Shown: piece after piece, positions 2,783 through 23,546 of the stretch
Numbering within the stretch: the stretch's first letter is position 1
How the letters are laid out: each line of letters opens with the position of its first letter
IMG/VR virus record: IMGVR_UViG_3300003690_000289
Span: 1-23,546 of that record
Strand: one strand, 5' to 3'
Length of the DNA: 23,546 nucleotides
Source of the DNA: a virus
Program-made: the position numbers and the translations under genes
Notes under the pieces: generated by a model
Databases searched by the model: none
The model's input: the letters and a program-made list of their open reading frames with translations, nothing else
What the model was told of the DNA's origin: nothing

Positions 2783-5700
2783 ATGGCAGAATCTAAATTT
2801 TTAAAATGGCAAGATAAAACTGGGGATGGTATTCCTGATGTTTGCGAGGATTTAGTACCTCCGGCACAAATTGATCCTTGTTCTGTATGTAAACCAAATC
2901 CAGGTGCTATTGTTCCCGATTGGAGAACAAAAGATGTCACGGAACCTTTTATTAACGAACGAGAATGTATCTACCAAATTGCTGTAGTAACCAACCGGAC
3001 ATCAACCGGCGCAGAGAACACGAGCAACGAAACGGCTGCCGAAGAAGCTCTCCAAGAAATTTATGAACTCCATGCATCGGATGCGATGGGAGGCCTCCTC
3101 ACCTTTTATAATAAAAAAGATAGTGCCGAAACCAGAGACACGCTAATCCAGGGTCTCTATCCGGATGATTATTATTTAGGACCACCACATTTTATTGCGA
3201 CTACGCTGCAATTATTATATTCAGTACCGATAGCAGTATTAGATTCGCTACCAGCCGCAGATGAGGAGGACGAAGAGCGAGATGACGATACTCCCGATCC
3301 CGGTACCGCACGCACAGTCTCTTATGAGGTTACGGAGCTGTTTGATAAAATAATGACGGTTCGAAAAGGCCTTCATTTATATAATCGATATTTTAAAGTT
3401 TCCCAATTTTTGGAAGGAACCAATATCTTTTTTGAAGATATGGAAAAAGTGTTTAATCTCGAAGACTACGGCGATCCTGGTTTCGGATCAGCACGTAGCG
3501 GCAATATTATGGCAGATATTCTGCCTCAATTAGAATCATTTTTAAATACCAAAAATATAAAGATGCCTGGAATCGGCTGGCCCGGATTTCAAGATAGTGC
3601 CACAAAACTTACATTTTATTTTGATAAAGATTATAAGATAACTCAATTAGATGTCTATACGGAAGGATGCGGCCCCAACAAACCAATAACTTATAAAAAA
3701 AGTGTAGACACCCACCTATATCCTAAATCTGCTTTTCAACAGCCCACAGCCATGGCCTATTTAGTTCGATTAGATGAGATGATAAGGGATTTGACAGCAC
3801 GCTCTCCTCTCCCTTGGGTAGAGTTTTTATTAAAGCATACTTATCCCAAATTATATGTAAAAGACGGTTCTACTATAGAAACAGGTGCTACTGCTGGCAG
3901 TTGTATAAAAAATGCGCTGATGAAAGAAGGCAAAGAGCTTGGCCAAGATTTATTAGATGAGGCGTTTAGTTTAGGGGACGCTATAGCATATAGATTTCAT
4001 CGAAATTTATGTTATAAAGACCAAGAAAAGGTTTTAGAAGAGGGGCGCGAATTGGGGTTCTTCACAATAGCGGATCCCGAGTCCGCAGATTTTAAAAGCA
4101 ATCTCCTGGCCGTGGCCCAAGAAAGAGCGTTTGGAGAAATAGACACAACATCCGCTGGTTTATGTCTCGCAGTCGCCCAATTTGGGGAATCTGAAGCAAC
4201 TCCCAATCTCGACAATTTATGGCAACAGGTGGTGGCCAGAATGAAAATGTGTGGGTTAATGGACATGATGACGGAGGCTATCCAGTGTTTGTTTAAAGGA
4301 ATGTCGTTAGAAGAAGGCCTGGGGATGATAATCAAAGCAGGACTGAAAGGAATGGGGGTCCAAGATTTTGGCGCAATGTTTATTTTATTGCCCCCAGAAA
4401 AGCAAGCCGAATTAAACGCATTGGTTCAACAAAAATTAAACAGTGGAGACATTTTTAAAGAAACTGGAGCACTGCAAGCGCGCTCCGACGCAGATACTGC
4501 AGCAGCCTTGGAATGGAATGCGGCGGATCCCAACTCCCCTGATTTATTGCCGTGGAACGATCAAAGATATATTGAACGGCAGGAGACGCGCGGCCGCTCT
4601 GAGAGTGCCATGCGTGAACGGCGCACCTTAGTACAAACCCTCGACAGCCCTGGTCGGGGGATTACAGTCTCCGGTCAACCCTTAAACCAAGACGTCGTAA
4701 TAGAAGCCTATATTTTAGCGCTTTTAGATGTATATAAAGGGTTTTATTTAGAACTCATTGATATCTTAAATCAGTTCCCCGGCGCCGAACTTGTTAAGAC
4801 CCTAGTAGCAGTATTTGACTGCCCTATACCTCCCCAAGGAGATTCCGGTGGTTATGATTTTATAAAAAGCGAGATCGATCTTCCTTATTGTCTTAATATC
4901 AATGATATCGTTCTGCCGCGTTTAGAGAACCCTTTTGCATGGTATCCTAAGAATACCGACTTCGTGGGACTTTTAATGGATGCAGCCAAACTGGCGATTC
5001 AAGAAATGGTCACACGAATGTTAATGCAGATTTTCTTAAAAATTTGCCAAACAGTAAGTGCCGCGGCATGTAAGGGGCTCGAAGTCTTGGGGGATTTAAT
5101 GCAAGCACCTTTTTCCAAAGATACTTTAAAAGAGATAGTAAAAGAAACCTTTTGTGGCCCGGATAGCGATGACGACACCGTTAATGAAGCACTTGTAGAG
5201 TTAGTCGCTTCTTTGGGCCCCGGGGCAATTGCCCTGGCAGATCAACAACAAGCCCTAAGATTTGCATCAGATCTCTCATCGGCCACCACCCGACGAGAAT
5301 TTGCTTTAGCATTCGATGGAAGACCGAATCCTACTCTGTTAAAGATCGGTATGAGACTAATCAACACTGAATATCCGGATTATAAGGAAGGCTTAAGCAA
5401 CGAAGACGATCTGGCCGCATTCTTCAAAGGGATCGGCGCCGCCATGCCACTTGGTGCGCGCAAGCAACTCCAAGATTATGCAGCAGGATTGGACGAAGAT
5501 GAATTTGTCCCTGCAAATCCTAATTTGTGTGCTACTCCCGAACAACAAGAACAATTCTGTGAGATTAGATCTGCGCTCTTAGGAGATCGAGCAAGTGATG
5601 CACAAAAAGCTCGTTTGTGTGTATTTCCCGAGCCAAATGCCGATTTAGCAGACATTCTTCAAACTGGAGTCGGCGAAACCATCGCAGCTTCGCTGCCCCC

Positions 5701-8700
5701 TATTGTGTCCCAACCGGGATGCGATGACGGACTTCTTCCATTCGAGCCGGCCGTGGCCATACAAACAGCCACCAGCGTTCTAGATAATGATCTCGAAATG
5801 TTAAAGATAGATTTTCTTGAAGACATGTTGGGTAATGGCCCTGGAAAACGCAATTGGGGCATGTTAAATCTTATCTTATCCGATACACGAGGCGCCCCCC
5901 TTTCAACCCATCAACGCAAAAAAGCTTGGGATTTCGGCTGGCAACAAAATTATGTAGATTTTTATGTAGAGTCTGCCGGCCGGATTTGGGATCCTTATGC
6001 GTCCCTCGAAAATCAAAGAGGTGCCTATCCTACAAAAGTAGCGGAATGGCTTCAATACGAGATCAATTACGGCCCGCTTTCGGATGAGGGCATAACTTCT
6101 AATAATGACTTTCTGGGGGAGTATGTATACAGTACAGTAACGTTTAAAGATAAAAATTTCGATGGATGGATGGGAAATGTTAATTTACTTTCATTGCCTG
6201 ATTTTGGTTACAATATAAAGATTGATGTAGATTTCGAAGGCGAAAACATCAACTGGGTTGCATTGGGACGCAAAAAAACACCGGATGCTACATTGGAATA
6301 TCGAGATAATGATTCGGACCAGCTCTCGGCCCCCGGCGGCGACAACTGGGGATATGGGCTTGATTTTGAAGTTTTTTTTGCTGATTTAGAAAAAACCGTT
6401 ACACCTGCGGCCGTTGCCGAAAAGGGAGAAAACGCCACCCCCACGATTCATAATGTAGCCGGCGATAATATGCGCATGAAAATATATGACGTCACAAAAC
6501 CCAGCCTCGCCGCCGCTCAGATAGTAGCCGGCTCCATGTCTCCCACCGAGGCCGCAGACTTCCTCGAAGAAGCCAAAGACCTCCTAGGTACCGGCGAAAA
6601 TAGAGAACTAAAATATGAATTTTTGTCTATCGACAACACACTTGATGATATAGATACTTCTCCATATGTGAATTTTTTAAGCACATTTATCCAGCATAGC
6701 GATTATTCTCCTCCTGTAGTTCTATTACGCGAAATGATAGAGCAAAATGGAGGTTCAATAACATTGCCCGATGCTCAAACGTTTTATGAATCAACCCTCG
6801 AAGGTTTATTGGATTCTTTCGCTAATGCTATTGTAGACAATGACGCAGCTTTTGCATATGGAGCGACTCTAGAAACTTTGACAGATGATGACTTGGAATA
6901 TGTGATTGATTCCGGACAAATTCCTGGCGCCTCCGGAGGAACACCTTATGATGAAATTTGGATAAATGATCCGGAGGGTCTTTCGCGCAAGATCAGAAAT
7001 AGTGATCAAATTTTAGGAATTAGCAAATACCAATGGGAAGTAAAACAAGGCACCCCCGGGTATGAATCCAATCGCGTTTTCTATCTTGATCCGGATAAGT
7101 TTGGAGGTTCTTATAAAAGTCCTCCATTGTATATCGCCCCCCTGCACGATAAAGGATGGTTTGGGTTGCTGGATGTCCTATTCCCAGAACAAGGTGCATG
7201 TAAACCCACTAGAACCGATTTAGTTGATTTTGGAGATATTCAAGCTAAAATTAATAAGACCTATCAACAGATTCCTGAAGATGAAAGATTAAAACTTGAT
7301 CGTGATTGTGCCATAGAAGTGCCCTACAATAGAATTCTCCAAAGACCAGCCGTGGCAGGCCTGGAAGGAATTATTACTGCTGCCATAAGAATTTATGCTT
7401 CAACGCATTTTATAAAATCATTAGCAACATTTACTACAATTAAGCCTGATTTTAAAACCAATTTTAGTTCTATCTATGCATCATATATTATTGAAGACAT
7501 GGAAGAAAGCTTTAAAGACGCTCAATCTGGAGCCGCCGAATTCTTTACTTTGTTTAAAGATGAAGAATTTTGGTATGCATTTTTAGAACAAGCAGTGCAA
7601 CTTTATTCTCGAAGAGTCGATGGCCGACAAATCAAGGGCGACGATTCAGATTCTAACGCCGATATTTTAGATCCACCCGCGAATGTGTTGAAGGCGTTAT
7701 ATACTATTAATGCTATGCAGGAAGAATATGAAATTCCCGATAGACAAGCCCTAAAGGATGCAAAGGACAATAATGATGCGGGTGAATTTCAAACTCTTCG
7801 TGGTTATAAAGGCGATAAGAACCTTGAAGCGATACAAGCAACCGAAGAAGAAGCAAAGCTAGTCTTAAAAGAACTTGTTAAAGAACAACTACAAATCATG
7901 GGAGAAAAGTTTATAGAGAATTTGGGCATTATTGATCTAAACCCCAGTATCCATGATGTGGCATATTACTTGCTAGAAAATTTGAGCGAAGGAAGTTCTT
8001 TGACGATTGATGGAAAAGAAATCAAAGAAGAAGTTAGCACTAATTCGGCTTTAGCCACCAGTGGCGAAGAGAACTATACTAATGGTAACGAGCTTGTAAC
8101 GGCAGACGGTGAAAATTATGTGGGATTCTATCATGTGAATAATGGCGTATATATGGAAGGAGAATTCCATGTTCCCGAAGATCATGGCATTTTAACTCCC
8201 GTAGCCAATCAGATAATTGTTCCAATTGGAGATGTAGCGCCTTATGAGTCCGTTACAGCAATGACGAAACCATTTACAATTGAAAAATATATTGCCGTTG
8301 AAGGAGTTAAGTATGCGCCTTCTGACGCAGTTGCTTTAATTTCACTAAACGCCGGTAGTGCTAATATTTCCACTGTCTACCCGGGCACTCTCACAGAAGT
8401 AACCGATGAACTGGGCAAAGTAGTGGGTCTGAAAGGTGAGTTAGGAGTAAGATATGGAGTAGAACTCTCTGTTAATATAGACGGAGTTAGAACTTCGATA
8501 GCAGAAACTGAAATAGACGTACTAGATCTTCCCATCAATAAATTTACAAGCATTGATGCCAATTCTAAAATACTTCTATGTTTAATCAACCAACTTAAAG
8601 ATGAAGACAAGTTTAAGTTGGTTTATAAATACATCTTCTCGTTGCCTAAAATTGTATCCACTCTCGCTATTTATAATGACATGGCATTTTTACCATCTAT

Positions 8701-9268
8701 TGGGCAGATTTCAGCACCCGTCGACGCAAGGACGGCCGCGGTGCAGGCCGCCCAGGACATGTTGGATGAGACCTCCACCGCGCTGATCGGCCTAGGCACG
8801 TTGTTCCCCCCCGGGCTTCTGCTGGGGGCGATCCTCAAGGGCATAGATCCGTCTTCGCTTGTCCCCGCCCCGCCATGGCCACCGCAGAAGGCCCCAGGTA
8901 AATATGTTGAGGATATAGAAGATGGGGCCCTGGGAGCCACCGGCGTCGATGGTTGGGTAGCTGCTTGGCGCCGCCAGAGGGGCCAAGGCCTTTTTGTTTT
9001 AGGGTGGAACCAATGGGATCAAGTATTAATGCGCAATTCTAAAAGTAGAATTAAAAAAATATTTAAGACTTATTATAACTCGGCCAACGGCATGGAAGAT
9101 ATATTATCGCAGATAAAAGGTAATGATCGCGCAAGCTGGACATGGGCCAAAAACCTTAAGTCCAGATTGAAGCCGTCCCCCGGCGCCGATTTGCTTCCCT
9201 GGTGGAAGAAAAGAAAGCTCCGTTCTAACCCGTTTGACGCCAAAGGGAATTTATGTGAAAAGAAATAA
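2783..9268 (+). CDS. Giant virion structural protein, probably baseplate/tail periphery, 2161 aa
   Basis: One uninterrupted 2161-codon frame, with AAAAGG at 2771-2776 before the ATG. The N-terminus has a DKTGDGIPD motif at residues 11-19, resembling calcium-binding DxDGDGxxD loops, followed by C21, C33 and C36. The rest is mixed: helical stretches (about residues 200-700 and 1500-1750), beta-rich stretches (about 1110-1230), and a beta-hairpin-like YVGFYHVNNGVYMEGEFHVP near residue 1776. Residues about 2000-2021 (ALIGLGTLFPPGLLLGAILK) form a hydrophobic patch inside a GC-rich DNA island. The C-terminus is basic (WWKKRKLRSNPF). I find no catalytic motif. Its position immediately before gp25- and gp6-like genes, with the gp25 start overlapping its stop, argues for a tail or baseplate part. 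I recall similar giants in environmental T4-like phages, without assigned function. It could alternatively be a fibre or internal scaffold. Confidence 0.85.
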   Translation: MAESKFLKWQDKTGDGIPDVCEDLVPPAQIDPCSVCKPNPGAIVPDWRTKDVTEPFINERECIYQIAVVTNRTSTGAENTSNETAAEEALQEIYELHASDAMGGLLTFYNKKDSAETRDTLIQGLYPDDYYLGPPHFIATTLQLLYSVPIAVLDSLPAADEEDEERDDDTPDPGTARTVSYEVTELFDKIMTVRKGLHLYNRYFKVSQFLEGTNIFFEDMEKVFNLEDYGDPGFGSARSGNIMADILPQLESFLNTKNIKMPGIGWPGFQDSATKLTFYFDKDYKITQLDVYTEGCGPNKPITYKKSVDTHLYPKSAFQQPTAMAYLVRLDEMIRDLTARSPLPWVEFLLKHTYPKLYVKDGSTIETGATAGSCIKNALMKEGKELGQDLLDEAFSLGDAIAYRFHRNLCYKDQEKVLEEGRELGFFTIADPESADFKSNLLAVAQERAFGEIDTTSAGLCLAVAQFGESEATPNLDNLWQQVVARMKMCGLMDMMTEAIQCLFKGMSLEEGLGMIIKAGLKGMGVQDFGAMFILLPPEKQAELNALVQQKLNSGDIFKETGALQARSDADTAAALEWNAADPNSPDLLPWNDQRYIERQETRGRSESAMRERRTLVQTLDSPGRGITVSGQPLNQDVVIEAYILALLDVYKGFYLELIDILNQFPGAELVKTLVAVFDCPIPPQGDSGGYDFIKSEIDLPYCLNINDIVLPRLENPFAWYPKNTDFVGLLMDAAKLAIQEMVTRMLMQIFLKICQTVSAAACKGLEVLGDLMQAPFSKDTLKEIVKETFCGPDSDDDTVNEALVELVASLGPGAIALADQQQALRFASDLSSATTRREFALAFDGRPNPTLLKIGMRLINTEYPDYKEGLSNEDDLAAFFKGIGAAMPLGARKQLQDYAAGLDEDEFVPANPNLCATPEQQEQFCEIRSALLGDRASDAQKARLCVFPEPNADLADILQTGVGETIAASLPPIVSQPGCDDGLLPFEPAVAIQTATSVLDNDLEMLKIDFLEDMLGNGPGKRNWGMLNLILSDTRGAPLSTHQRKKAWDFGWQQNYVDFYVESAGRIWDPYASLENQRGAYPTKVAEWLQYEINYGPLSDEGITSNNDFLGEYVYSTVTFKDKNFDGWMGNVNLLSLPDFGYNIKIDVDFEGENINWVALGRKKTPDATLEYRDNDSDQLSAPGGDNWGYGLDFEVFFADLEKTVTPAAVAEKGENATPTIHNVAGDNMRMKIYDVTKPSLAAAQIVAGSMSPTEAADFLEEAKDLLGTGENRELKYEFLSIDNTLDDIDTSPYVNFLSTFIQHSDYSPPVVLLREMIEQNGGSITLPDAQTFYESTLEGLLDSFANAIVDNDAAFAYGATLETLTDDDLEYVIDSGQIPGASGGTPYDEIWINDPEGLSRKIRNSDQILGISKYQWEVKQGTPGYESNRVFYLDPDKFGGSYKSPPLYIAPLHDKGWFGLLDVLFPEQGACKPTRTDLVDFGDIQAKINKTYQQIPEDERLKLDRDCAIEVPYNRILQRPAVAGLEGIITAAIRIYASTHFIKSLATFTTIKPDFKTNFSSIYASYIIEDMEESFKDAQSGAAEFFTLFKDEEFWYAFLEQAVQLYSRRVDGRQIKGDDSDSNADILDPPANVLKALYTINAMQEEYEIPDRQALKDAKDNNDAGEFQTLRGYKGDKNLEAIQATEEEAKLVLKELVKEQLQIMGEKFIENLGIIDLNPSIHDVAYYLLENLSEGSSLTIDGKEIKEEVSTNSALATSGEENYTNGNELVTADGENYVGFYHVNNGVYMEGEFHVPEDHGILTPVANQIIVPIGDVAPYESVTAMTKPFTIEKYIAVEGVKYAPSDAVALISLNAGSANISTVYPGTLTEVTDELGKVVGLKGELGVRYGVELSVNIDGVRTSIAETEIDVLDLPINKFTSIDANSKILLCLINQLKDEDKFKLVYKYIFSLPKIVSTLAIYNDMAFLPSIGQISAPVDARTAAVQAAQDMLDETSTALIGLGTLFPPGLLLGAILKGIDPSSLVPAPPWPPQKAPGKYVEDIEDGALGATGVDGWVAAWRRQRGQGLFVLGWNQWDQVLMRNSKSRIKKIFKTYYNSANGMEDILSQIKGNDRASWTWAKNLKSRLKPSPGADLLPWWKKRKLRSNPFDAKGNLCEKK
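8701..8910 (+). other. GC-rich island inside the 2161-aa gene
   Basis: Counting by hand, 8701-8760, 8761-8820 and 8821-8880 contain 41, 39 and 41 G/C of 60 (65-68%), while 8641-8700 contains 20 of 60 (33%). The composition falls again after about 8940. The frame stays open and encodes residues about 1980-2039, ending in a Pro-rich run (VPAPPWPPQKAPG). Such a sharp, in-frame change suggests a segment acquired by recombination or a fast-evolving linker. Confidence 0.7.
9243..9248 (+). promoter_or_regulatory. Shine-Dalgarno for the gp25-like gene
   Basis: AAGGGA at 9243-9248 lies six bases before GTG 9255. It favours this non-ATG start over the in-frame TTG at 9234 and over the later ATG codons at 9309 and 9312. 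Confidence 0.6.
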
Positions 9269-9636: not shown

Positions 9637-11433
9637 ATGCCAGATGAACAGAAAAAGATTTTACCGATAGATTATACCCATAGGGAATTTGAGAGTATTA
9701 GAAGCGATCTTCAAGGTATCGCCGAGCGATTGTATCCCGATACCTTTAAAGATTTTTCTGAAGCTTCTTTTGGTTCTTTGATGCTCGATGCAGTCGCATA
9801 TGTAGGGGATCAACTTTCATTTTATTTAGATTATAATATTAATGAATGTTTTCTGGATACCGCTTATCAGTTTGATAATGTGGTACGACACGGTAGAATT
9901 TTAGGTTATAAATCTCCCGGTAGACCGTCAACTTATGGCAAAGTGGCTTTATATGTGATGGTTCCGGCATCTTCGACGGGTATTGGTCCTGATTCGGCAT
10001 ATACACCTCTATTAAAAAAAGCCACATCATTTTCGTCCCAAACGGGCCTTAAGTATATGTTATTGGAAAATGTGGATTTTGGAAATCCTAAAAATACTAT
10101 AATTGTTGCGCGCGTCGATGAAGCGACTGGTGCCCCCACATGGTATGCGATAAAAGCATATGGAACCGTCGTCTCGGGATATTTTTCACAGCAAACAATA
10201 ACTGTCGGAGATTATCAGAGATATAAGAAAGCACGGCTTTCAAATGCTAATATTTCTGAAATTATATCTGTAATCGATTCTCAAGGCCATGAATATTTTG
10301 AAGTAGATTATTTGGCACAAGATATGGTTTATAAAGAGTTGCCTAACAAAAATTTTAAAAACGATAATGTTCCCTCTGTTATTAAGCCGTATTTGGTTTC
10401 AAGAAAGTTTACTCTGGAAAAAGATTCCCGAGGTCCGTATCTGCAGTTTGGAAGCGGCAAAGCCGGCGAATCTAATGTGGTGGCCGATCCTCAATCGGTT
10501 GCCATTGATTTGTTCGGGAAAGATTATGTAACAGACACCACCTTCGATCCCACGCGACTGTCTAAAAATGAAAATTTGGGGATAGTCCCTTCTAATACAA
10601 CCTTAACAGTGGCATTCAGAGGATCGAATCCCGCAAATTCTAATATTGGAGTTGGGGTTTTGAATCAAATAAATCTCACTAAATTTGAATTTAAGGATAT
10701 TCAGTCTTTAAATAATGTTGTTGTAGGGGAAGTCAAGCGCTCTTTAGAAGTCAACAATGAAGAGCCGATTGTGGGAAGTGTGGCCTATCCCAATTCTACC
10801 GAAGTTAAAAGAAGGATTTATGACACATTCCCCACACAAAATCGTGCCGTTACTCAGGCTGATTATGAAAATATTTCTTATAGAATGCCGGCCAAATTTG
10901 GCTCCCTCAAGAGAATTAGCGTCCAGCGCGATCCTGATTCTCTTAAAAGAAATTTAAACATGTATGTGCTGTCCGTGAATGAAAGAGAAGAATTAATAGC
11001 CACCAACACAACTATTAAAAACAATCTTAAAACATGGCTCAATAACTATCGCATGATGAATGACACTATCGACATTTTAGATCCTTATATTATCAATATC
11101 GGAATCAATTTTATTATTAAAGCTGATATCGGCGCCGATAAATATGTGGTGTTAAATACCGCAATTGAAGCATTAAAGCAAAAATATAGAACTCATTTTT
11201 ATATTGGAGAGCCTCTCTATATTAGTGATATTTATCAAGAATTAAAGAAAACTACAGGCGTCTTAGATGTATTAAAAGTAAAACTTACTAATCCTCAAGG
11301 GACCAATTATTCGAGTACCAAAATAAACATTGATCAAAATATCTCCCCAGATGGGACTTATTTGATTGCTCCCAAGAATGCAATTTTAGAATTGAAGTTC
11401 CCTGCCACTGATATCAAAGGAAAGTGTAAGTAA
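9637..11433 (+). CDS. 6: Baseplate wedge protein, T4 gp6 / baseplate J-like
   Basis: This encodes 598 residues (T4 gp6 is 660). The N-terminus is diagnostic of gp6-like proteins: IDYTHREFESIRSDLQ, then LDAVAYVGDQLSFYLDYNIN and ECFLDTAYQFDNVVRHGRIL. A beta-rich middle follows, then the baseplate J-type region (NRAVTQADYENISYRMP at about 408-424) and a C-terminal region with YIGEPLYISDIYQELKKTTG near 527-546. Known family role: gp6 dimers form the iris ring that links baseplate wedges around the hub. AGGA at 9627-9630 is six bases before the ATG, and the gene starts 14 bases after the gp25-like stop. The stop overlaps the next ATG as TAATG. Confidence 0.93.
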   Translation: MPDEQKKILPIDYTHREFESIRSDLQGIAERLYPDTFKDFSEASFGSLMLDAVAYVGDQLSFYLDYNINECFLDTAYQFDNVVRHGRILGYKSPGRPSTYGKVALYVMVPASSTGIGPDSAYTPLLKKATSFSSQTGLKYMLLENVDFGNPKNTIIVARVDEATGAPTWYAIKAYGTVVSGYFSQQTITVGDYQRYKKARLSNANISEIISVIDSQGHEYFEVDYLAQDMVYKELPNKNFKNDNVPSVIKPYLVSRKFTLEKDSRGPYLQFGSGKAGESNVVADPQSVAIDLFGKDYVTDTTFDPTRLSKNENLGIVPSNTTLTVAFRGSNPANSNIGVGVLNQINLTKFEFKDIQSLNNVVVGEVKRSLEVNNEEPIVGSVAYPNSTEVKRRIYDTFPTQNRAVTQADYENISYRMPAKFGSLKRISVQRDPDSLKRNLNMYVLSVNEREELIATNTTIKNNLKTWLNNYRMMNDTIDILDPYIINIGINFIIKADIGADKYVVLNTAIEALKQKYRTHFYIGEPLYISDIYQELKKTTGVLDVLKVKLTNPQGTNYSSTKINIDQNISPDGTYLIAPKNAILELKFPATDIKGKCK

Positions 11434-13034
11434 TGGCATTAAAGCGATATACAGCGAGCGCTGATACAACGATTGTAAATGCTTATCAGCCCAACCTGCG
11501 CACTCGCGGCACAGGCGCAAATATGGGCGCCGCAGACGTTCTAGAAACGTTTTCTATCTATGGGCGCCAGTCTACCAGTTCCGCCGAGTTGTCCCGAATT
11601 CTTGTTAAATTTCCTGTTGCTTCTATCTCAACCGACAGAACAAACACAGTTATCCCGGGCTCAGGCTCCGTAAGTTTTTATTTGCGAATGTTTAATGCGG
11701 CCAATTCTAAGACAGCGCCTTCGGGAGCTTTTTCTTATACCGTCGAACCTTTATCCAGAGACTGGCAAGAAGGCTACGGACTCGATTTGGAGGGTTATAA
11801 AGATATAACTAAGGGTAACATTGGCGCCAACTGGATGAGCAGCAGCGATTCAACTGCATGGTCAAAGACCGGCGGTGATTATATCAGTACAGCAAACGCA
11901 GCCTATCCATATCGCTGGTATAATGTTGATGCCAGCACGGGAATAAGCAATCTAGAAGTTGATGTCACACAATTGGTAGAATTATGGATAGCCGGGACTT
12001 TAGATAATTATGGCGTTGGAGTACATTTATCGGGCGCATACGAGGCCTATTATAATAGTGCCGATGAGGGAACATACGATGGCTACAACAACGATCTAAC
12101 AGGCGCCACAACTTCATATTATACAAAGAGGTTTTTTGCTCGCGGATCTCAGTTTTTCTTTAAGCGTCCCACTCTGGAAGCGCGCTGGGATTCCACTAAT
12201 AAGGATGATCGAGGCGATCTCTATTATAGTAGTTCTTTGGCTGGAGTAAACGAAAACCTTAATACCATTTATCTTTACAACTATCTCCGCGGCCAGTTAA
12301 CCGACATTCCCGGCTCCTCAACTGGCGCGATTTACGTCAGCCTATACTCTGGTTCTGCCGACAACACAGAACCTTCTGGTAGCGCGCTGGCGCTCCCCAC
12401 CACGCTTCCGCGCACTACAGTTGAAGCTGAAAATCCCTATGTGGTTACTGGCGGGTGGATTTCAACGGGGATTTATACAGCCTCTTTTGCTGTAACATCC
12501 GCGGCCGCCCCCCTCACTAAACTTTTTGACGTATGGCATGGCGGCATTGGCACAGGTACCCCGGGGAGTACGAATGCTAGCACAGAATATGTGACAGCAT
12601 CTATTGTGCCGTTGCACTTTAGTTCGTCACAAGCGGTACAGAAATCGCATTATTATATGAATATTACCAACTTAGAGGAAAGATATTCCCCTACGGAAAC
12701 TGCTCGTTTTAACCTTTATGTCCGACATAAAAACTGGTCCCCCACTATTTACACTAAAGCCAATTCGTCCATAGAAAACCTTTCTATTTTAAGCGCATCT
12801 TATAGAGTGTTTAGGGTATTAGACGGCTATAACGCAGTTTCCTATGGAACAGGAAGCGATAAACATACAGAAATGTCTTATGATATTTCTGGGAATTATT
12901 TTGATTTTGATATGCGTCTCTTAGAGCCGGGATATACATATGCATTTAAATTTGCATTTTACGAGAATGGAATCAATTCTTGGCTCGAACAGCCGTCTAT
13001 GTTTAAGTTTCGAGTAGCAGATAATGAGTATTAA
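11433..13034 (+). CDS. Beta-rich virion protein with DNRLRE-like N-terminus, 533 aa
   Basis: The N-terminus (residues 1 to about 190) reads like a DNRLRE/CBM96-type beta-sandwich: an ADTTIVNAY strand, then RILVKFPV, then VDVTQLVELWIAG, the usual order of a hydrolysable-looking but non-enzymatic adhesive fold. The rest is Ser/Thr/Tyr/Gly-rich and beta-like, ending with LLEPGYTYAFKFAFYENGIN. There is no signal peptide or catalytic motif. AGGA at 11418-11421 lies 11 bases before the ATG, and the ATG shares a base with the previous stop. Position after gp6 suggests a baseplate-peripheral or fibre-connecting role; this is inference. I recall similar proteins in environmental T4-like phages just upstream of a LamG giant. 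Confidence 0.82.
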   Translation: MALKRYTASADTTIVNAYQPNLRTRGTGANMGAADVLETFSIYGRQSTSSAELSRILVKFPVASISTDRTNTVIPGSGSVSFYLRMFNAANSKTAPSGAFSYTVEPLSRDWQEGYGLDLEGYKDITKGNIGANWMSSSDSTAWSKTGGDYISTANAAYPYRWYNVDASTGISNLEVDVTQLVELWIAGTLDNYGVGVHLSGAYEAYYNSADEGTYDGYNNDLTGATTSYYTKRFFARGSQFFFKRPTLEARWDSTNKDDRGDLYYSSSLAGVNENLNTIYLYNYLRGQLTDIPGSSTGAIYVSLYSGSADNTEPSGSALALPTTLPRTTVEAENPYVVTGGWISTGIYTASFAVTSAAAPLTKLFDVWHGGIGTGTPGSTNASTEYVTASIVPLHFSSSQAVQKSHYYMNITNLEERYSPTETARFNLYVRHKNWSPTIYTKANSSIENLSILSASYRVFRVLDGYNAVSYGTGSDKHTEMSYDISGNYFDFDMRLLEPGYTYAFKFAFYENGINSWLEQPSMFKFRVADNEY

Positions 13035-13149
13035 AAAGTTATTCCAATCTACTGAAAAAAACAGAAACTATCTTTCAGACACAACTCAACAAGAAGCTTT
13101 CAAAAGCATTGAGTCTGCAGATAATTTAGAGCAGATCATCGTTTGCTAG
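13024..13149 (+). CDS. N-terminal 41-codon piece of the LamG giant, cut off by a frame break
   Basis: ATG 13024 lies inside the end of the previous gene, overlapping its stop by 11 bases in the same style as the other junctions here. It encodes MSIKKLFQSTEKNRNYLSD and continues to SADNLEQIIVC before TAG 13147-13149. The downstream giant frame has no start codon before ATG 13316, yet is plainly coding from about 13130. The simplest reading is that this is the true N-terminus of the giant, separated by a +1 frame change. From memory, related proteins begin similarly and have about 20 extra residues between this piece and FARFGSAYLYYK, so a local deletion is likely. A stand-alone 41-aa peptide is less likely. 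Confidence 0.65.
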   Translation: MSIKKLFQSTEKNRNYLSDTTQQEAFKSIESADNLEQIIVC

Positions 13150-16100
13150 GTTCGGTTCAGCTTATCTCTATTACAAGTCGTCGCTTGAAAGAGTCTTAGA
13201 GTTCTATCCCTACGATGGTTCCGACGCAGAAAAGAACGCATACCATAACAAATCTTTACCGATAGACAAATATATCTACGACAATCTCTATCCGAGAACC
13301 ACCGGATATATATCGATGAGCGCCGGAGGCTGGGGCACACAATCCTCTATCTCGGGCGGCTATGGTGTCCCGGCAACCGAAGAGTACATTACTTTCTTTG
13401 GTGGCCCTGGTACGGGCTCATTCGCTTCAGGCAGCAACGTCATGGGTATGCTCCCCGATGAATCTACAAGTCAGTTCCAGTATTCTAATATTTATGATAC
13501 CGACATCTACACCAACGCCGGATTGCCCTCTGATTACGCGTCAGGCTCCCGTGAGTCCAACTTAAAATCTGATTTTGATACTGGAGTCACTGTAGAATTT
13601 TGGCTCCAGACGGGATCCCTGGGCGGGGATGCTGACACTCAAAAACAAGTTGTCTTTGATATGTGGAATACTGAACTGTCATCAAGCGCTGATTATGGAC
13701 GCATTACTATTGAGTTGACAGGTGGTATGCGCGGAACAAGCACTCTTGGATGGACCGATTCTCCATTCTTGTTGACGGTTCAATCAGGAAACCTCTTTTA
13801 CAATCCAGACTCTCCCGGAACATTTCAGCAAAAGATTGGCTTAGGGATCACTACGGCGTCTTTGGGAGAATGGCACCATTATGCTATCACCATTTATAAT
13901 TCCGGCTCGGAACTAAGAACCGACTTTTATGTCGACGGAAGGCTAAATGATACAGCGCTCGGACCTGCAGCCACTGCAGTAGATGCAATCGATACCACCG
14001 GTGTGAAAGCCGCGACCACTGATAGCGCGTTTTCATTTACTATTCCAACTTCCGCCGGCGGAGAAAATGGCGCGACAACAATAGATCTGGACTACAGCGC
14101 GACTACCGCTCCAACAGCAGATGCCAGCTCAATTGGTATTGGCTTTAACGATAAAACAGACGCTGAAATTGCCACACTCATTATTAATGCTATTAATGGA
14201 GTTGCCACTACAAATATTGTCTTTGCAACGTCCGGAAATGGACAATCTGGCTATGATGCCGGCATTACAGCTACACAAGGCTCAAGCGATACTCAAATTA
14301 CACTCACAGTGGACAAAGCCGGCACATCTGGTAATCTTAGCACTGCTCTTGCAGACACTCTCGGTACGTCTCTGGTTGATGTCGCAGATTTTACTGGCGG
14401 AAAAGGTTTCCAGGTTTCATCTCTGGAAGAACTAACTTCCAAGAATATGATGGGGCGTTTAGGAGCCTTACAATATGCTCCTTCGGGCACCATGGCGAAG
14501 CCGTCGTGCACCGACTTGGATGGCGCAGGAAAGCTTTCTGGCTCGCTCGATGAATTCCGATTCTGGAAAGAAAAGCGCAGCGCCCAAGATATCGGCCGCT
14601 ATTGGTTTACACAAGTTGGCGGCGGTGTCAATACTGATTTAGCAAATGCATCTCTTGGAGTTTACTACAAGTTTAATGAAGGTATTACAACTAATGCTTC
14701 TACTGATAGTATCGTACTCGACTACGGTGGTCGTATTTGTAATGGTATCTGGACTGGTTATACTTCCACTTCTAGAAACACTGGTTCGGCTATAGTTTCT
14801 GCCAGCGCAGCCACCAAGGAATATCGCGATCCGATTATTCACAGCGACCATCCGAGCGTTATTACTCTTAAATCAGATTTATTGGCGACAGGATCCTATC
14901 ACGATAATACTAATGCTACGATGTTTGTTAAAAATGCTCCGGGATGGGTATTAGAATTAAATGACGATACTGAATCTGAAAATGATGATTTAAGAAAGCT
15001 TTCGCATATTGTTGGAACTTATTTCGATCAATTGTTTCTCCAGATTCAAGCATTGCCGAAGATTGTGGGCTCAACTTATCCCAGCAGTTCGCACAAGCCG
15101 CTACCCTTCGCACAACATTTACCGCAGTCGCTAGGTCTCTATACTCCCGAATTGTTTATCGATGCAACAGTGATGGAGAAGTTTACAAATCGTAATGACT
15201 TCATGCTCTTTGAAAACGATTTGACCGAGACCAAGAACTTAATTTACACAAACCTTTATAATAACCTCGCTCACATCTATAAGAACAAGGGTACCGAAAA
15301 AGCTGTCCGCAATGTATTAAGGTGTTTCAATGTTGATGAAAAGCTCCTGAGACTTAAGACTTATTCCACCAACACCACTTTCGAGCTAAAGAATAACCTT
15401 CAGCAAACAACTGTAAACAAAACATTCCTTAATTTCCACAATACCGGAAGTCTTGGCGCGGTTGTATATCAGAGAATAAGCTCTTCTAACCCCAATGCTA
15501 TTGGTTATATTTCTGGGAGTGGATATACTGCAGGCCCCACGCGCCACGGCTATGAAAATCGATATGGATTTACAGTCGAAGCTGATGTAACATTCCCAAG
15601 ATACACTGAAAAAAGTACAATCAACAGAGGTTTTGTAACTTCTTCGCTGTTCGGAATGTATACAGTTAATACCGGTAGCACATTTGGGCCCCCCAATGAA
15701 GATGATTCGCCCGGTCCCCGACCGGGGTATTTGGACGGAACTATTACTACTTTCGCGACGGGTGGTGTTACTGGGGATCCCCTCGCGATATTTGATCCCG
15801 CAAACTTCCAAGTATATGCATGCCGGCACTCCCCGGATTCTGACAACGTTTACTTCAAACTGGCATCGACCAATCATCCCCACCCATTCCGCGGAGACAT
15901 CGCAGAAGGCCTAACTAGTTCTATATTCCCTGACGTTTATGATAATAGTCGCTGGCAACTGTCAGTTCGTGTTCGACCACAAACCACAGGAACAGGCTCT
16001 ATCTATCCGATGGCCGGCTGGGTATCCGGCTCCACTGCAGCCACAGATTACAATTATGAAGTGATCTTCCGCGGATTGAACACTTATTTGGGCGAGATCC

Positions 16101-19100
16101 AAAATAGTTTTGAATTAACTGCCTCGCTGCCTTGGGTCTCCGGCTCAAACTTCCTCCAGTCAGCCAAGCGCATTTATACGGGGGCTGAAAGAACCAACAT
16201 TACTGGAGCACTCTTAAATCCCAGCGATGTTAAGGTGGCAGGCATCAAGGCTTGGACGAGAGCCTTAGATAACAATTCCCTTGATCAGCATGTGTTTGAC
16301 GTCGGAAACATGGGAATTTCTGCTTCTTATCAAAGCGTTTCGCCATTAGATTTGAATATCGGACACTACCTCGATGTGCCAAACGCCCGCATGCTGGCGC
16401 TCGACTGGAACTTTAATAATGTAAGTGGTGGATCAGATTCGTCTGGTAATTTCTATGTCACCGATATGAGTTCGGGTTCGGCACAATTAAGAGACAACTA
16501 CGGTTGGATTGGAAAAGAAACTGGCTATCAACACACAGGCTATGGCCACCATTTCCCAACTTCCACTAAGCAGGTAATCTCTAGAGAATTAGTAAATGCA
16601 TTTCAATTCGTGGATCCTGAACAAGCAATGGGATCTGATATGATCCAAATCTTATCTGACGACGATAAAGTATTTGGAGTTGAAGAGACAGTGCCGAGTT
16701 TCTATTACACCCTCGAAAAGAGCATGTACAGCGCAATTTCTGAAACCATGCTCGACTTCTTTGCGGGAGTTATTGACTTTAATAACCTCATCGGAGAGCC
16801 CGTAAATCGTTATCGTGACCGTTACAAGTCGCTGGAGAAGCTAAGAGAAGCTTTCTTCCGCAAGGTCACAACCAAGAGCGACATAGAAAAATACGTCGAA
16901 TATTACAAGTGGTTTGATGACACCATCTCCACTATTGTCGGACAAATGGTACCGGCCTCGTCTGAATTTGAAGGCGATGTGATGAACACAATCGAGAGTC
17001 ATGTCCTCGAAAGAAACAAGTATCAAACAAAATTCCCCACTCTTGAGTTTGTTGAACCCGATCTAGATGTGGCTATGCAGGGTGTGAAGCCTTCAATGTA
17101 TCCATGGCAACAAGGCTCTTCTACTATCAAAGGCTCTCCCCATTCAACCAAACAACATCTTTTATTCTGGCAACAACGAGCGCTAAGGAGTTCCGCAGAA
17201 ATAACGTCAGGCGATGCTACCGTAGATGCACAGAGAGAAATCTATCGCAAAGTCATTTATTCTACTCCACATATGAGTCAAAGTTATCCAGTTGCTTTCA
17301 CCAAAGCCGGCGCAGTATACAAGCCGGAGGAATTTGCACGTCGAACTTTTGGACAACCTTATGTCTTGACCATTACTAAGCCCACTGGTTCGAACTCCAT
17401 AGGCGGTGGTGTTAACTTTGAACCTCACAAGAACATTGCATTTACCTATGATGCGGTGAAGCCATTTGGCCCTGTAAATACTGCGGGAGGGATTTTTGTT
17501 CCACAAAACGTCTTATTCGCCAATACTGAAGATTTAGTAGGCCTTCAGAAATTGGATATGACGGATGGAAACCCGACCGATAAGAAGATCAAGAGAACTA
17601 TTAAGGTTCAGCACGGCAGAAATTGGGAGAATGGCGCCGGCTATTTTAATGTTAAATCTTCCATGGCTTTCCCTTTCAATATCATGAGTTCGTCGGTTGT
17701 AAGCGGATACAACAAAGAAGTAATCGACCGAGTAACAGGCAATATTTCTATCACAAACCTTCATAACGATGTGTATGGTGACAATATGGAAATCCCCCTC
17801 CAGGGTCCATTTACTGATTACGCAGTTGGTGGTCATCAATCTCGTCATGTGAGAGTTAATACTGGCTCTGCTGCAGGTGTTACTGACGATTTTAGAAGTC
17901 GTCCAGAAGCTTGGAAGCTTCTCCTAGGAAAGTGTGAGAACGTGACAGGCGCTCTTGGAATGGTCTCTGTAGACTATCCATGGCCCGAAATGGGACAAAA
18001 TCCAACTTCATCTGAAGGTACAGTTACATTAAGTGCCAACGCATCTGCCGGAGATTACGTCACAGTGGGCGATGGGGATACAACAGTTAAATTTGAAATT
18101 CCTTTTGAGAATACGAAAGCAACCAACTTTCCGAATTCTGATTGCCCCAGCATCCAGGTCGGGGGCACTAGTGCACCTAACGCAGACGAACTTTATGAAT
18201 TAGATCAGTGGACAATTTCGGGGTGGATACGTCTTGACCCCGCCGGCGGGGGGAGCCGTACAATTTTTCAATGTGGTGCCACAGGTCAAACTCGCAATTT
18301 CTTGGTAAGATCGAATGCTAAATTAAGATACAGTTGCCAATGGTCAGATACTGTAGCGGGAGGCGGCACCCATGAGCACTATTGGGAAGCCACAACTGCT
18401 TTATCGGATTCAACATGGTACCACGTAGCATTGGTATACGATGGGACTACAGGCAGCAGCGATCCTGTGTTTTATATTGACGGCGCCGTGGATGCTATTT
18501 CGTCTGAATATTCTCCCGCACCATCAGGCTCTCTAGTGGCGTTCGCTGACGGCGCCAGAGCCCGTGTTGGCGGGTCACAAGGATCCTGCGCAGCCCTTAG
18601 ATTCGAGGGAGATTTAGATGAAGTCTCCATTTGGCAGTTAACGATGAGCGCCGCTGAGATTACAGAATTATATGCCACCGGATCTGTTCTAAATTTGTTC
18701 AACCACTCAGTTTATACAACTAATAATAGTAATTTATATTCTTGGTGGCGCATGGGTGATGATGCCAATGATGCCATCGATGGAACGGGTGAATATGATT
18801 TAGGAGAGAACTCTATCGTTGATCAAACGGGAAGAGCCAATGGAAATCCATGGGAGAACACCACCACCACTTTCGATACGGATGTTGTCGCCGGCACCGC
18901 CGGCGCCGCGGGCACTATTTCTTGGCCTAGGGGGGCTTCTACCAACGCGACAGCCATTAATTTTATGTGGGCTGTTGATGAGCAATATGTATCCGGCAAC
19001 TTATCTGTTACGGCTTCATATCCCGACGCGTCGTCCGGCGATGAAGTGATCACTCTTTATAACTCTAAATATGGTACTTCTACTGGCATTAAATTTATGA

Positions 19101-22100
19101 TGAACGGAGCCAAAGGAAACGTACCGCTGGTTAAATCAGGTGACAATATAGCTGTTTCTGGAATGGACGCTGGTCGTGATCCCAAGGTGATGAACTATAA
19201 TGTTCCAAGAGCGGTCTATTATAGAGATTTCATTGCCAAGCGCCCTGTAAATATTCGAAACATTCAAATGAAGACTGGCTCTACCATTCTCGGCAATTAT
19301 CAACATAATTATCAAGTGATAAGCACAGTAGGGGCCTTCTCCAATCCCAGAAGCTTTGTTGAGAATCAGCCGGCAATTCCTACCGTAATTACTAGCAAGC
19401 TTAATCTTTCCGGTACCGATATGGTTTCGACGTTGATGAATCTCAACCGCTCTAACGCACAATATCCCACCGATGCCACATTCCCCGCCGCATCCGCTAG
19501 CTATTTTAACTTTGATTTAGAATATACCGTAAATGCCGATACAGGCTCAGACAATAAGTCTGTCATCATCTCTCGCTTTGGTGCACCGGGCAGTAGAGAA
19601 ACGATGGCAAGAGCATTTCAAGATTTTAGATCGACCGAGTTCTCAGTTTATAACACTATCAATAATCGAAACCTTACGGTCCGACGACCAGCACAGGTAC
19701 CCTCCGGCACCATAACAATCACAAGCAGCCAAATTCGTGTAAATGATATTCATGGCAAAGATGTAGGGCTTAATCCACATCTTGCGCGCCACTCAGCACG
19801 TTTTGGCCGGAGCTATATTTACACCCCCGATCCCGGCGCCTCTTATGATCAAGCGCCCAACTTCCACAAAGTTAATCGCAACCCGCGCCGGCGAATTGTG
19901 TTAGCAGGCTATCCAACTGAAGAGAGCCATTCTAGTAATTATCAATTTGATAACTTTTATGTACAACATCAGATCCCACGTAATGATAAACAATATGCGT
20001 GGGTAACAGGCTCTATAGTTATGGAAGTGAGCGCAGACGGCCGACCCGATGAAAACGATTTCTTTACTAAGAATTACCAATTCTATGGGATGGCTCCCAC
20101 ATGGGGACCGCAAGCTGGTTTAAGGTCTAGCTCTGCCGAAGGTTATGTAGCTTTCTTCAATTATGTGACATCGAGTGCCATCCAACCACGGGCAGGAAGC
20201 AGTACCCCAACCGGCCGCTATACGCGTATTTCATCTCCCTTTGCCTCTGGCGGATTGTTACAAACTTTTGCGCTGAATACTTATACGCTTGATCCTCTAA
20301 CATCTTCCACCAACACACTTGGGTATCCTAATGATCTTCTGACAGCCGGCGGCCCAAAGTCCTTTTCTGTGGTGACCCCATGGGTAGCTTATACTAACTA
20401 TACTCTTTTGGATGCAGAACTCGCGTCCGCAGCGCAAGACATCACATGCTCCGTATCAGACACTCCTGCAATCCCCGGCAAAGCTTCTAATTATCTTAAC
20501 CTCTTGCTTACCCGACGTCGCAGCTATTTTGGCTGGAGTTGGACCGCCACTCGTCAACAAGACCATCCGATTCTGCGAAAAGAATATGAAGAGAATAGAA
20601 TTTCAGTCATATCTGCATCCAATGGCAATATCTCCCACTATCGACTGTCGCCGGTTTCCATGCGAGGGCGTCCAGTTTTGGCCAACTTTGATGATGCACG
20701 CGGCAACAGCACAACCCTTCGTATGACTCACAACAATGAAGAGATCTTTTTTAATGACAGAAATTTCAATAATGTTTTAGATATTTCTTTGGATCAGATC
20801 GTAACTCCTTATGAGCAAATTGTTCCTCTCCTTAGACAAGGAAGCGATTATCAATTAAATTGGGTATTGTATACTCAAAACGTTTTCCCGTCTCTCCGAA
20901 ATGCATTTTCGAGTTCGGTTACGAGCAAGCTCACTTACGCTAATAACTATTGGCGCACCTCACAAGCAAAAAGAATTATAACTGGTTCTCTAGGGGCCCC
21001 CACTGTCCCGGTGGTTTCTCCCCCCGGTGGAAACAATTTCCAACGCGGCGGACAAGGACTCAATAGTTTTGGAATAAACATTAGCCAAAGCTCATGGTTA
21101 TTAGATGCCTCACAAGATTTTTTGACGCGGACTACCGCCAGCGCACCGGCCGCCTCCGGGGTTAATTTGCCGGCACTGCGCTTTTTAGATCCTTCTGGTG
21201 AATTACAAAATCACTATATGTATGCTGCTCCGGACCCCGCCGCAAGCCACAAAGAAGCTGCCCGAGGTGTGGCTTGGGATCACACCATACCCGGCGCAAT
21301 TTATGCGCGCCCCCATTTCTTAGCCGGCGTAACATCGGTTGTATCCCCCACAGGAGTAAAGATCCCCGAAACTGGTTCGCTGACCTCTTCTTTCCCTATC
21401 ACTGGGTGTCTTCTTGGCCAAGTTTTTGGCGGCGAGGCGCTGTGGGAAGCCAACACACAAGCAGGCATCTTAGCCCCTAATCCCGCCGGCACAGCGTCTT
21501 ATATCTATGAACTTACCGCATCTAATCCTTGGTATGACACTTATAGTGATTTTGATGAAGAAATTAGGTTGGTTGCTAAAGATTATGCCATCGTACCTGA
21601 GTTCCGCATTAGCGATCATGTAAAAGATTATTTAAAAGATGGATTGTTTAACGAAAACAAATTCGATACATTTGGCATCCCAGGCACACTGCATAATAGT
21701 AGAACAGCTTCTTTCTTTAAAGAATATACCAATTCTGAATTTATGCAAGACTTCTTAAAAGTCAAAACTGATTCAGGCCTAAAGGGCGCCCAGATTAAAT
21801 TAGAATGTCACGCAATCATTAAATTTAATCCTTATAAAGATTTTTGGCCTGCCCAACGTACATTGAATATGGTATCGGAATTTTCAAGTTCATATATTGA
21901 TGGTATCAAAAATAGTTACAACCAAGGACAATATTCCGCTTATGCGTTAGCTACAAATTGGGATGTTGCTGGACTATCTCGACCCCTGTGGCAACCCTTC
22001 TTCGCCCCGGGAATTTTGTACAATACAATAAAATCAGGTATAGCAGTAGATTTCCCGGTAGTAACTGATCCTGAAAAAGTCCTGCGCCACGCACTTTGGA

Positions 22101-23546
22101 CGGGTAATACGCTAGACAGTGATAAATGGGAAGAAGCTGAAGATTTATGGGCCACCTGGGCCAAGGCTAGTGGTTCACTCGAAATCGCCGACGAATACCC
22201 GCTAGTGGAGCAAGCAGGTTGGAATAACACTGGCAGCTTTTTTGATATGCGCATTCCCTTCGAAGGAATCATAACGCCAGAAAAATATCTGCAAGAAAAT
22301 CAATTTGTAGATATGGAGGCACACCCCTCAGCCTCTCTCCCCTATGCCACTGCATCCTGGGCCGGCACCATTAACGCTCCCACTACCTATACTTTAATGG
22401 CGCGCAATTTCTTTGGAGCAACAGCCGAATTTTATCTTAAAGATGGTGAACCCACCAAACTAGAGTCAGGGATTATCGGAGAAGATCTACAGTTTGCAAG
22501 TGGCAGCATTTACGGCGCCCGCTTAAAAATGAGACGCTCTATGAAGGGCGAACGTAATTATGCAGGATCCTTTTATCCGATATACGCGGAAATGAGTGGC
22601 TCTGGACCATGGACTAATGACGGCGCCAAAAACATAGTTGGCGCGCAGATGATTACTACCACGGATCCTGATATCTATTCCGGCTTCTCTCCATCTTATG
22701 GATCTGGTTCCTATCCGGTACCTCAAGATCCCAATAATAATCCCGAATATCGCGAAACCTTTACAATGTATAGTCGCCCTACCGCTTTCGGTCCCTCTTT
22801 CGCCGGCCGGCCGTTTAGAACTGGGAGTTCATCCCGGGAATTTATTTCTGGTAGCGCATTTTCAGGCACGATGGACTGTTTTAATGGATATAACTGGGCA
22901 TATTCTCCGCCACCTTATCACGGTGAAGCCTGGGTCGACTTTATTTTCAAGCCCACTTCGTCGGTATCCTATAACCTCGAAAGGATTTTGGCAGAGACCC
23001 AAACTGTTTATTGGCGCGTTGATTCTGGGTGCCCTCTCTTCGGTTTCCGGGCCGGCCGCCAACTGAAAAGTCCGAATTACGGCGAAGCGACCAATGTAGA
23101 TACAGTCTTTTATAATGGCGAAACGCCCTTGGTAGCTGACTTTTCCAATGTTAGCCCAACTATTAGGGGTTACGCCAACCCAAGCGCAAAATTAGCATGG
23201 CCAGTATATGGCGGCAAGGTTATTAACGATAATGCGATGCAAATAAGTGCTAGTATAAATCTTTTTGGAATGGACAGCGTGTTCTTTGAAGAGAAGGATA
23301 AATTCGGTAATGTGATTGCACAACGAAATACTCCGATTGGTCAAAAATGGATCATCAAACCTAAATTTGAAACTCCTATGCTTAATTTTAATGATGAAGG
23401 CAGCCGCCCCATTACCAATACCGCAGGTACCTTAACTCTTCCCACTTTTGCTTCAGGAGCCGTACCCCGCGGCATGTGGCACCAGTTTGGAACTATTCCA
23501 GATTCTCCAGAAAAAGGAATCTTTCTTGAAATAGGCGATATCCCAC
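13130..23546 (+). CDS. Giant LamG-domain virion protein, putative adhesin/baseplate component (main frame, 3' partial)
   Basis: The frame opens after TAG 13127-13129 and stays open to the window end, more than 3,460 codons without a stop. The protein is recognisable from SFARFGSAYLYYKSSLERVL onward, before any start codon; the first ATG is 13316. It therefore depends on the 41-codon piece upstream or has lost its start. Order: a LamG-like jelly roll at about 13562-14620 with a second domain nested inside; a helical region (about 14900-15400); beta-rich stretches; a charged helical region (about 16800-17040); a second LamG-like domain (about 18186-18700); then a long beta-rich, aromatic-rich C-terminal half. 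There is no signal peptide or enzyme motif. LamG/ConA-like folds often bind glycans, so host or capsule recognition is plausible. The family resembles giants I remember from environmental phages encoded just after the gp6 region. Confidence 0.88.
13562..14623 (+). other. First LamG-like jelly-roll domain
   Basis: Hallmarks of a LamG/ConA-like lectin fold appear in order: FDTGVTVEFWLQ (strand with Trp) near 13571, GEWHHYAITIYN near 13866, DFYVDGRLND near 13923, and GSLDEFRFWKEKRSAQDIG near 14540. The last two are normally close together, but here about 400 bases of another domain lie between them. Function inferred from the fold: carbohydrate or surface binding. Confidence 0.75.
13985..14415 (+). 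other. Domain nested inside the first LamG fold
   Basis: Between DGRLNDTALG and the resumption of the LamG core (SSLEELTSKNMMGRLGALQY) lie about 140 residues of a different type. They are Ala/Thr/Gly/Ile-rich, with FSFTIPTSAGGENGATTIDL, then DKTDAEIATLIINAINGV, then SSDTQITLTVDKAGTSGNLS. The strand-helix-strand pattern repeats motifs common in phage structural proteins, but I cannot name the family. Confidence 0.6.
18010..18910 (+). other. Second LamG-like domain in a likely inserted cassette
   Basis: A short strand-rich lead-in (EGTVTLSANASAGDYVTVGD) is followed by a second LamG-like core. Its marks are LDQWTISGWIRLD near 18204, STWYHVALVYDG near 18411, PVFYIDGAVDA near 18465, and GDLDEVSIWQLTMSAAEI near 18609, then LYSWWRMGDDA near 18735. 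This is the textbook order for the fold. GC-rich patches sit within it (18238-18251 and 18888-18915). Confidence 0.75.
18238..18251. repeat. 14-bp perfect GC-only palindrome
   Basis: CCCCGCCGGCGGGG reads the same on both strands. It lies in frame inside the second LamG domain (encoding DPAGGG). With no loop it is a palindrome rather than a terminator hairpin, and it is not followed by a T-run. Confidence 0.6.

Follow-up and report, generated by a model that had tools for sequence, protein, structure and literature searches.

Probable accidental loss of about 50 nt near the start of a giant LamG gene in a tailed marine phage

In the 23,546-base virus record IMGVR_UViG_3300003690_000289 (referred to below as the window), which comes from a tailed marine phage, a giant structural gene is interrupted shortly after its start. 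It has probably suffered an accidental loss of about 50 nt, whose origin is more likely technical than a recent inactivating deletion. Nothing at the frame break points to new biology. This one giant gene, located beside a baseplate-wedge gene, is short of a net ~50 nt about 117 nt past its start, and this length, not being divisible by three, puts the first 41 codons in a different frame from the >3,400 that follow. As the record is written, translation would end at the TAG at 13147, and the giant protein would be absent or made only from a start ~170 nt downstream, minus its conserved N-terminal block. If the origin is technical, the loss may have arisen in assembly, in the library, in scaffold joining, or from a chimeric or deleted read.

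The broken frame and the missing block

The coordinates of the two pieces, the junction, and the neighboring genes are collected in Table 1. Read directly from the sequence, the 41-codon frame opens at ATG 13024 with MSIKKLFQSTEKNRNYLSDTTQQEAFKSIESADNLEQIIVC and stops at TAG 13147–13149. Its start and the stop of the preceding gene overlap, as in most relatives. The giant frame opens after TAG 13127–13129 and runs on without a stop for ~3,472 codons, as far as the record goes, so that its truncation is simply due to the contig end. Its earliest ATG/GTG/TTG codon lies at 13316, although SFARFGSAYLYYK is already encoded upstream of that position. Both frames overlap only at 13130–13146. The sequence-only reading had given the same limits for the short frame, the same opening of the giant one, the same overlap, and no start before 13316, all of which are borne out by re-reading the sequence. 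No other break is apparent in the tightly packed genes of the window, and the remaining genes are intact.

Table 1. Features around the frame break and their positions in the window
Feature	Position	Strand	Remarks
Baseplate wedge (gp6/J-like) protein	9637..11433	+	PHROG matches; intact; syntenic in relatives
Upstream gene, 533 aa	11433..13034	+	Intact; syntenic in relatives
Detached N-terminal piece of the giant gene	13024..13149	+	41 codons and TAG; homologous to residues 1–38 of relatives
Remainder of the giant LamG-containing gene	13130..23545	+	Frame open up to the contig end
Junction, net 50 nt absent	13138..13146	+	Multiple alignment; gap after about 13140
Laminin_G_3 (PF13385) domain inside the giant gene	18188..18661	+	E 5e-19, above the Pfam cut-off

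Multiple alignment places a single 50-nt gap at about 13140–13142, in the window alone and in none of the aligned relatives. Homology on the left extends to about the codons ATC ATC, and on the right it restarts at TTTGCTAGG (13142); the loss lies about 117 nt past the start codon, near residue 39. Since 50 modulo 3 equals 2, the observed frame change is accounted for exactly; a linker of 55 or 57 residues in this phage, as in the shorter or longer relatives, instead of 56, would make the loss 47 or 53 nt, both of which are also 2 modulo 3. The lost block corresponds to ~17 residues and matches the ...VPQVDYSDPAN... stretch of the family, including P47 and P54, which are invariant across 16 diverse members. 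Thus, the deletion of a length not divisible by three that had been favored from the sequence alone agrees with the net 50-nt loss of a conserved block in the alignment; that a block is absent was right, while its size, previously put at about 20 residues, is about 17 (50 nt) by alignment.

As judged from these sequences, the frame break is not a product of chance, the two pieces being both ends of one N-terminus that is conserved in every relative. In addition, the changes after the junction with respect to the nearest relative (locus L002), counted over 58 codons, fall mostly at third positions (30, against 11 at first and 10 at second positions), which indicates that the stretch now devoid of a start was coding in this lineage until very recently.

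Relatives of the giant gene

The family, named here the giant LamG gene of marine phages, is defined by the relatives recovered in two scans. The first one searched IMG/VR with only the opening 400 codons of the giant frame, a query that cannot favor loci with an intact upstream piece, and returned 25 loci. All 25 hold one unbroken frame that reaches upstream to a homologous ATG (MSIKKLF... in most) and that is also open downstream as far as the DNA was examined. The second one used a profile of the N-terminus and yielded 83 loci (the best 80 of 535 confirmed stretches, plus three loci from bacterial genome assemblies), representing 65 distinct N-termini on contigs partly shared with the 25-locus set. 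All of these 83 (best 80 of 535, plus three) are intact, ATG-started, and in a single frame, in a set whose ranking by match to the full N-terminus would by itself favor intact copies. They have 51–57 residues ahead of the FA..GSA motif; in the family as a whole, the distant L026 has 67.

The window holds both signature blocks of the family—MSIKKLF...VES and FA[RK][FY]GSA...YPYDGS—in different frames, and its gene comes right after the baseplate wedge gene and a ~530-aa gene, as expected for a member. However, the continuous frame with 51–57 residues from the Met to the FA.. motif is missing from it, as 50 nt are absent and the frame is broken. Relatives that lack the upstream piece and have an intact start within the giant frame, which the sequence-only reading had named as the case against a split gene, were not seen: all begin at the homologous upstream ATG.

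The nearest relative, the uncultivated marine phage IMGVR_UViG_3300025141_012314 (locus L002/L027), shares with the window the gene order, the overlapping start, and the N-terminal pattern MSIKKLF...VES...FARFGSAYLYYK...YPYDGS, with about 74% amino-acid identity past the junction. Nevertheless, its giant gene reads as one complete frame of 3,758 aa, whereas in the window a net 50 nt is absent near residue 39 and the contig edge ends the gene. The corresponding frames of four further contigs are likewise single and long.

No relative of the giant N-terminus was found among named phages, a PDB search with it gave insignificant matches only, and a search of the literature on giant LamG genes gave no match. 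The structure model of the N-terminus of L002 has a mean pLDDT of 41. Three relatives—L033 (CP070664.1), L034, and L035—come from records labelled as bacterial MAGs (a candidate division WOR-3 chromosome and Maricaulis sp.), and could represent a prophage, an infecting phage, or binning contamination.

Origin of the loss

A technical cause is favored over a real recent deletion, being considered about twice as likely, because the break is a singleton in an otherwise open and conserved gene, and because a conserved tail-region protein is likely to be needed. In the GeneTack survey, homolog-confirmed singleton frame breaks are expected to come from sequencing errors and not from true indels (PMC3711429). 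The singleton frameshifted genes classed there as error or indel pseudogene resemble the window in having one homolog-confirmed break, unclustered and with no conserved shift site, but they involve indels of 1–2 nt, whereas the lesion in the window is a block of ~50 nt (PMC3711429). Local repeats were not found around the junction, and no repeated word of at least 10 nt occurs near it within the window. Repeat-mediated misassembly was rejected on this ground; with no sign of a simple repeat collapse, a technical cause would have to be a faulty scaffold or gap join, or chimeric reads. Also against a technical cause, the contigs of the relatives show no comparable break, so that errors of this sort are uncommon among such records.

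The absence of a repeated word of this length also argues against the commonest graph error, which keeps alive a second reading, in which the genome of the sampled phage, or of a defective part of its population, recently underwent a genuine inactivating deletion of ~50 nt. This is possible, although rather unlikely. The join is clean in the letters, it bears no assembly-type repeat, and the other genes are intact. Microhomology at the breakpoints, judged from the relatives rather than from the lost bases themselves, amounts to 0–4 nt and is uninformative. On the other hand, every relative has an intact copy and the gene adjoins a baseplate gene, so that it is probably needed for infection, and the >3,400 downstream codons show no decay. 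In addition, the junction word has 0 matches in IMG/VR, with the reservation that very near records may be left out. No sibling contigs of this phage turned up in an exact search, which may omit very near records and the window's own.

A contig made of two phages joined at 13142 is very unlikely. A join of two strains could also lose sequence, and the best-matching relatives vary somewhat along the window, but identity to L002 crosses the junction without a step (0.67 before; 0.74, 0.69, and 0.66 after), GC3 stays near the L002 range, and both flanks keep the gene order. Given this absence of a step in identity or GC3, a chimera of distant phages is not indicated, while one of very close strains is conceivable and counts as a technical cause. 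Also very unlikely is that the deletion is both real and fixed, and that the virus lives with a split or shortened giant tail-region gene read from an internal start at 13316 or later, in which case the otherwise invariant N-terminal block would be dispensable in this phage.

Programmed +1 ribosomal frameshifting near GTT-TGC-TAG, also proposed by the sequence-only reading to join both frames, hardly deserves credence. The direction fits (frame 1 to frame 2) and a stop codon lies at the would-be shift site, which however lacks the CTT-TGA-C pattern of prfB (PMC3711429). All the relatives (25 and 83 loci, the latter including the best 80 of 535) are in one frame, so there is no site to conserve, and no homolog carries a frame transition at a common position. 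As read directly, GTT TGC TAG G offers no slip-prone re-pairing codon: GTT to TTT and TGC to GCT mismatch, and neither tRNA re-pairs. Furthermore, the ~17 missing residues would stay missing.

Phage tail genes are sometimes switchable, and a phase-variable mutation had likewise been put forward; as a switch of a host-contact gene by slipped strands or inversion, it is just as implausible, since tandem, direct, and inverted repeats are all absent around the junction, leaving slippage unsupported, and no relative is in an "off" state (25 and 83 loci, the latter including the best 80 of 535).

Under the favored accidental loss, 13024 and not 13316 should be annotated as the start of the giant gene, with the defect flagged. 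This reading also keeps split-gene or frameshift expression from being wrongly claimed for a giant phage gene.

Gene neighborhood

Between the window and L002, amino-acid identity is 71% for the baseplate wedge protein over its whole length, 65% for the next gene, and 74% for the N-terminal 200 residues of the giant protein. The first LamG-like stretch of the giant gene, near 13577–13972, scores under the Pfam cut-off. Within this first LamG-like region, a module at 13900–14400 (SFTIPTSAGG...SSDTQITLT...) is common to L002 at about 67–90% DNA identity and has no alignment with L004, L008, L010, or L013; these comparisons suggest a domain that was exchanged or inserted.

At 471–1682, the window encodes an endolysin-like protein that carries an M15 peptidase domain (Peptidase_M15_4) at its C-terminus. 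Its C-terminal half is unmatched in the syntenic L002 gene, which suggests that the catalytic domain was swapped. A second giant gene of 2,161 aa, at 2783–9268, shows no PHROG match over its first 739 residues, and holds about 43% identity with its counterpart in L002.
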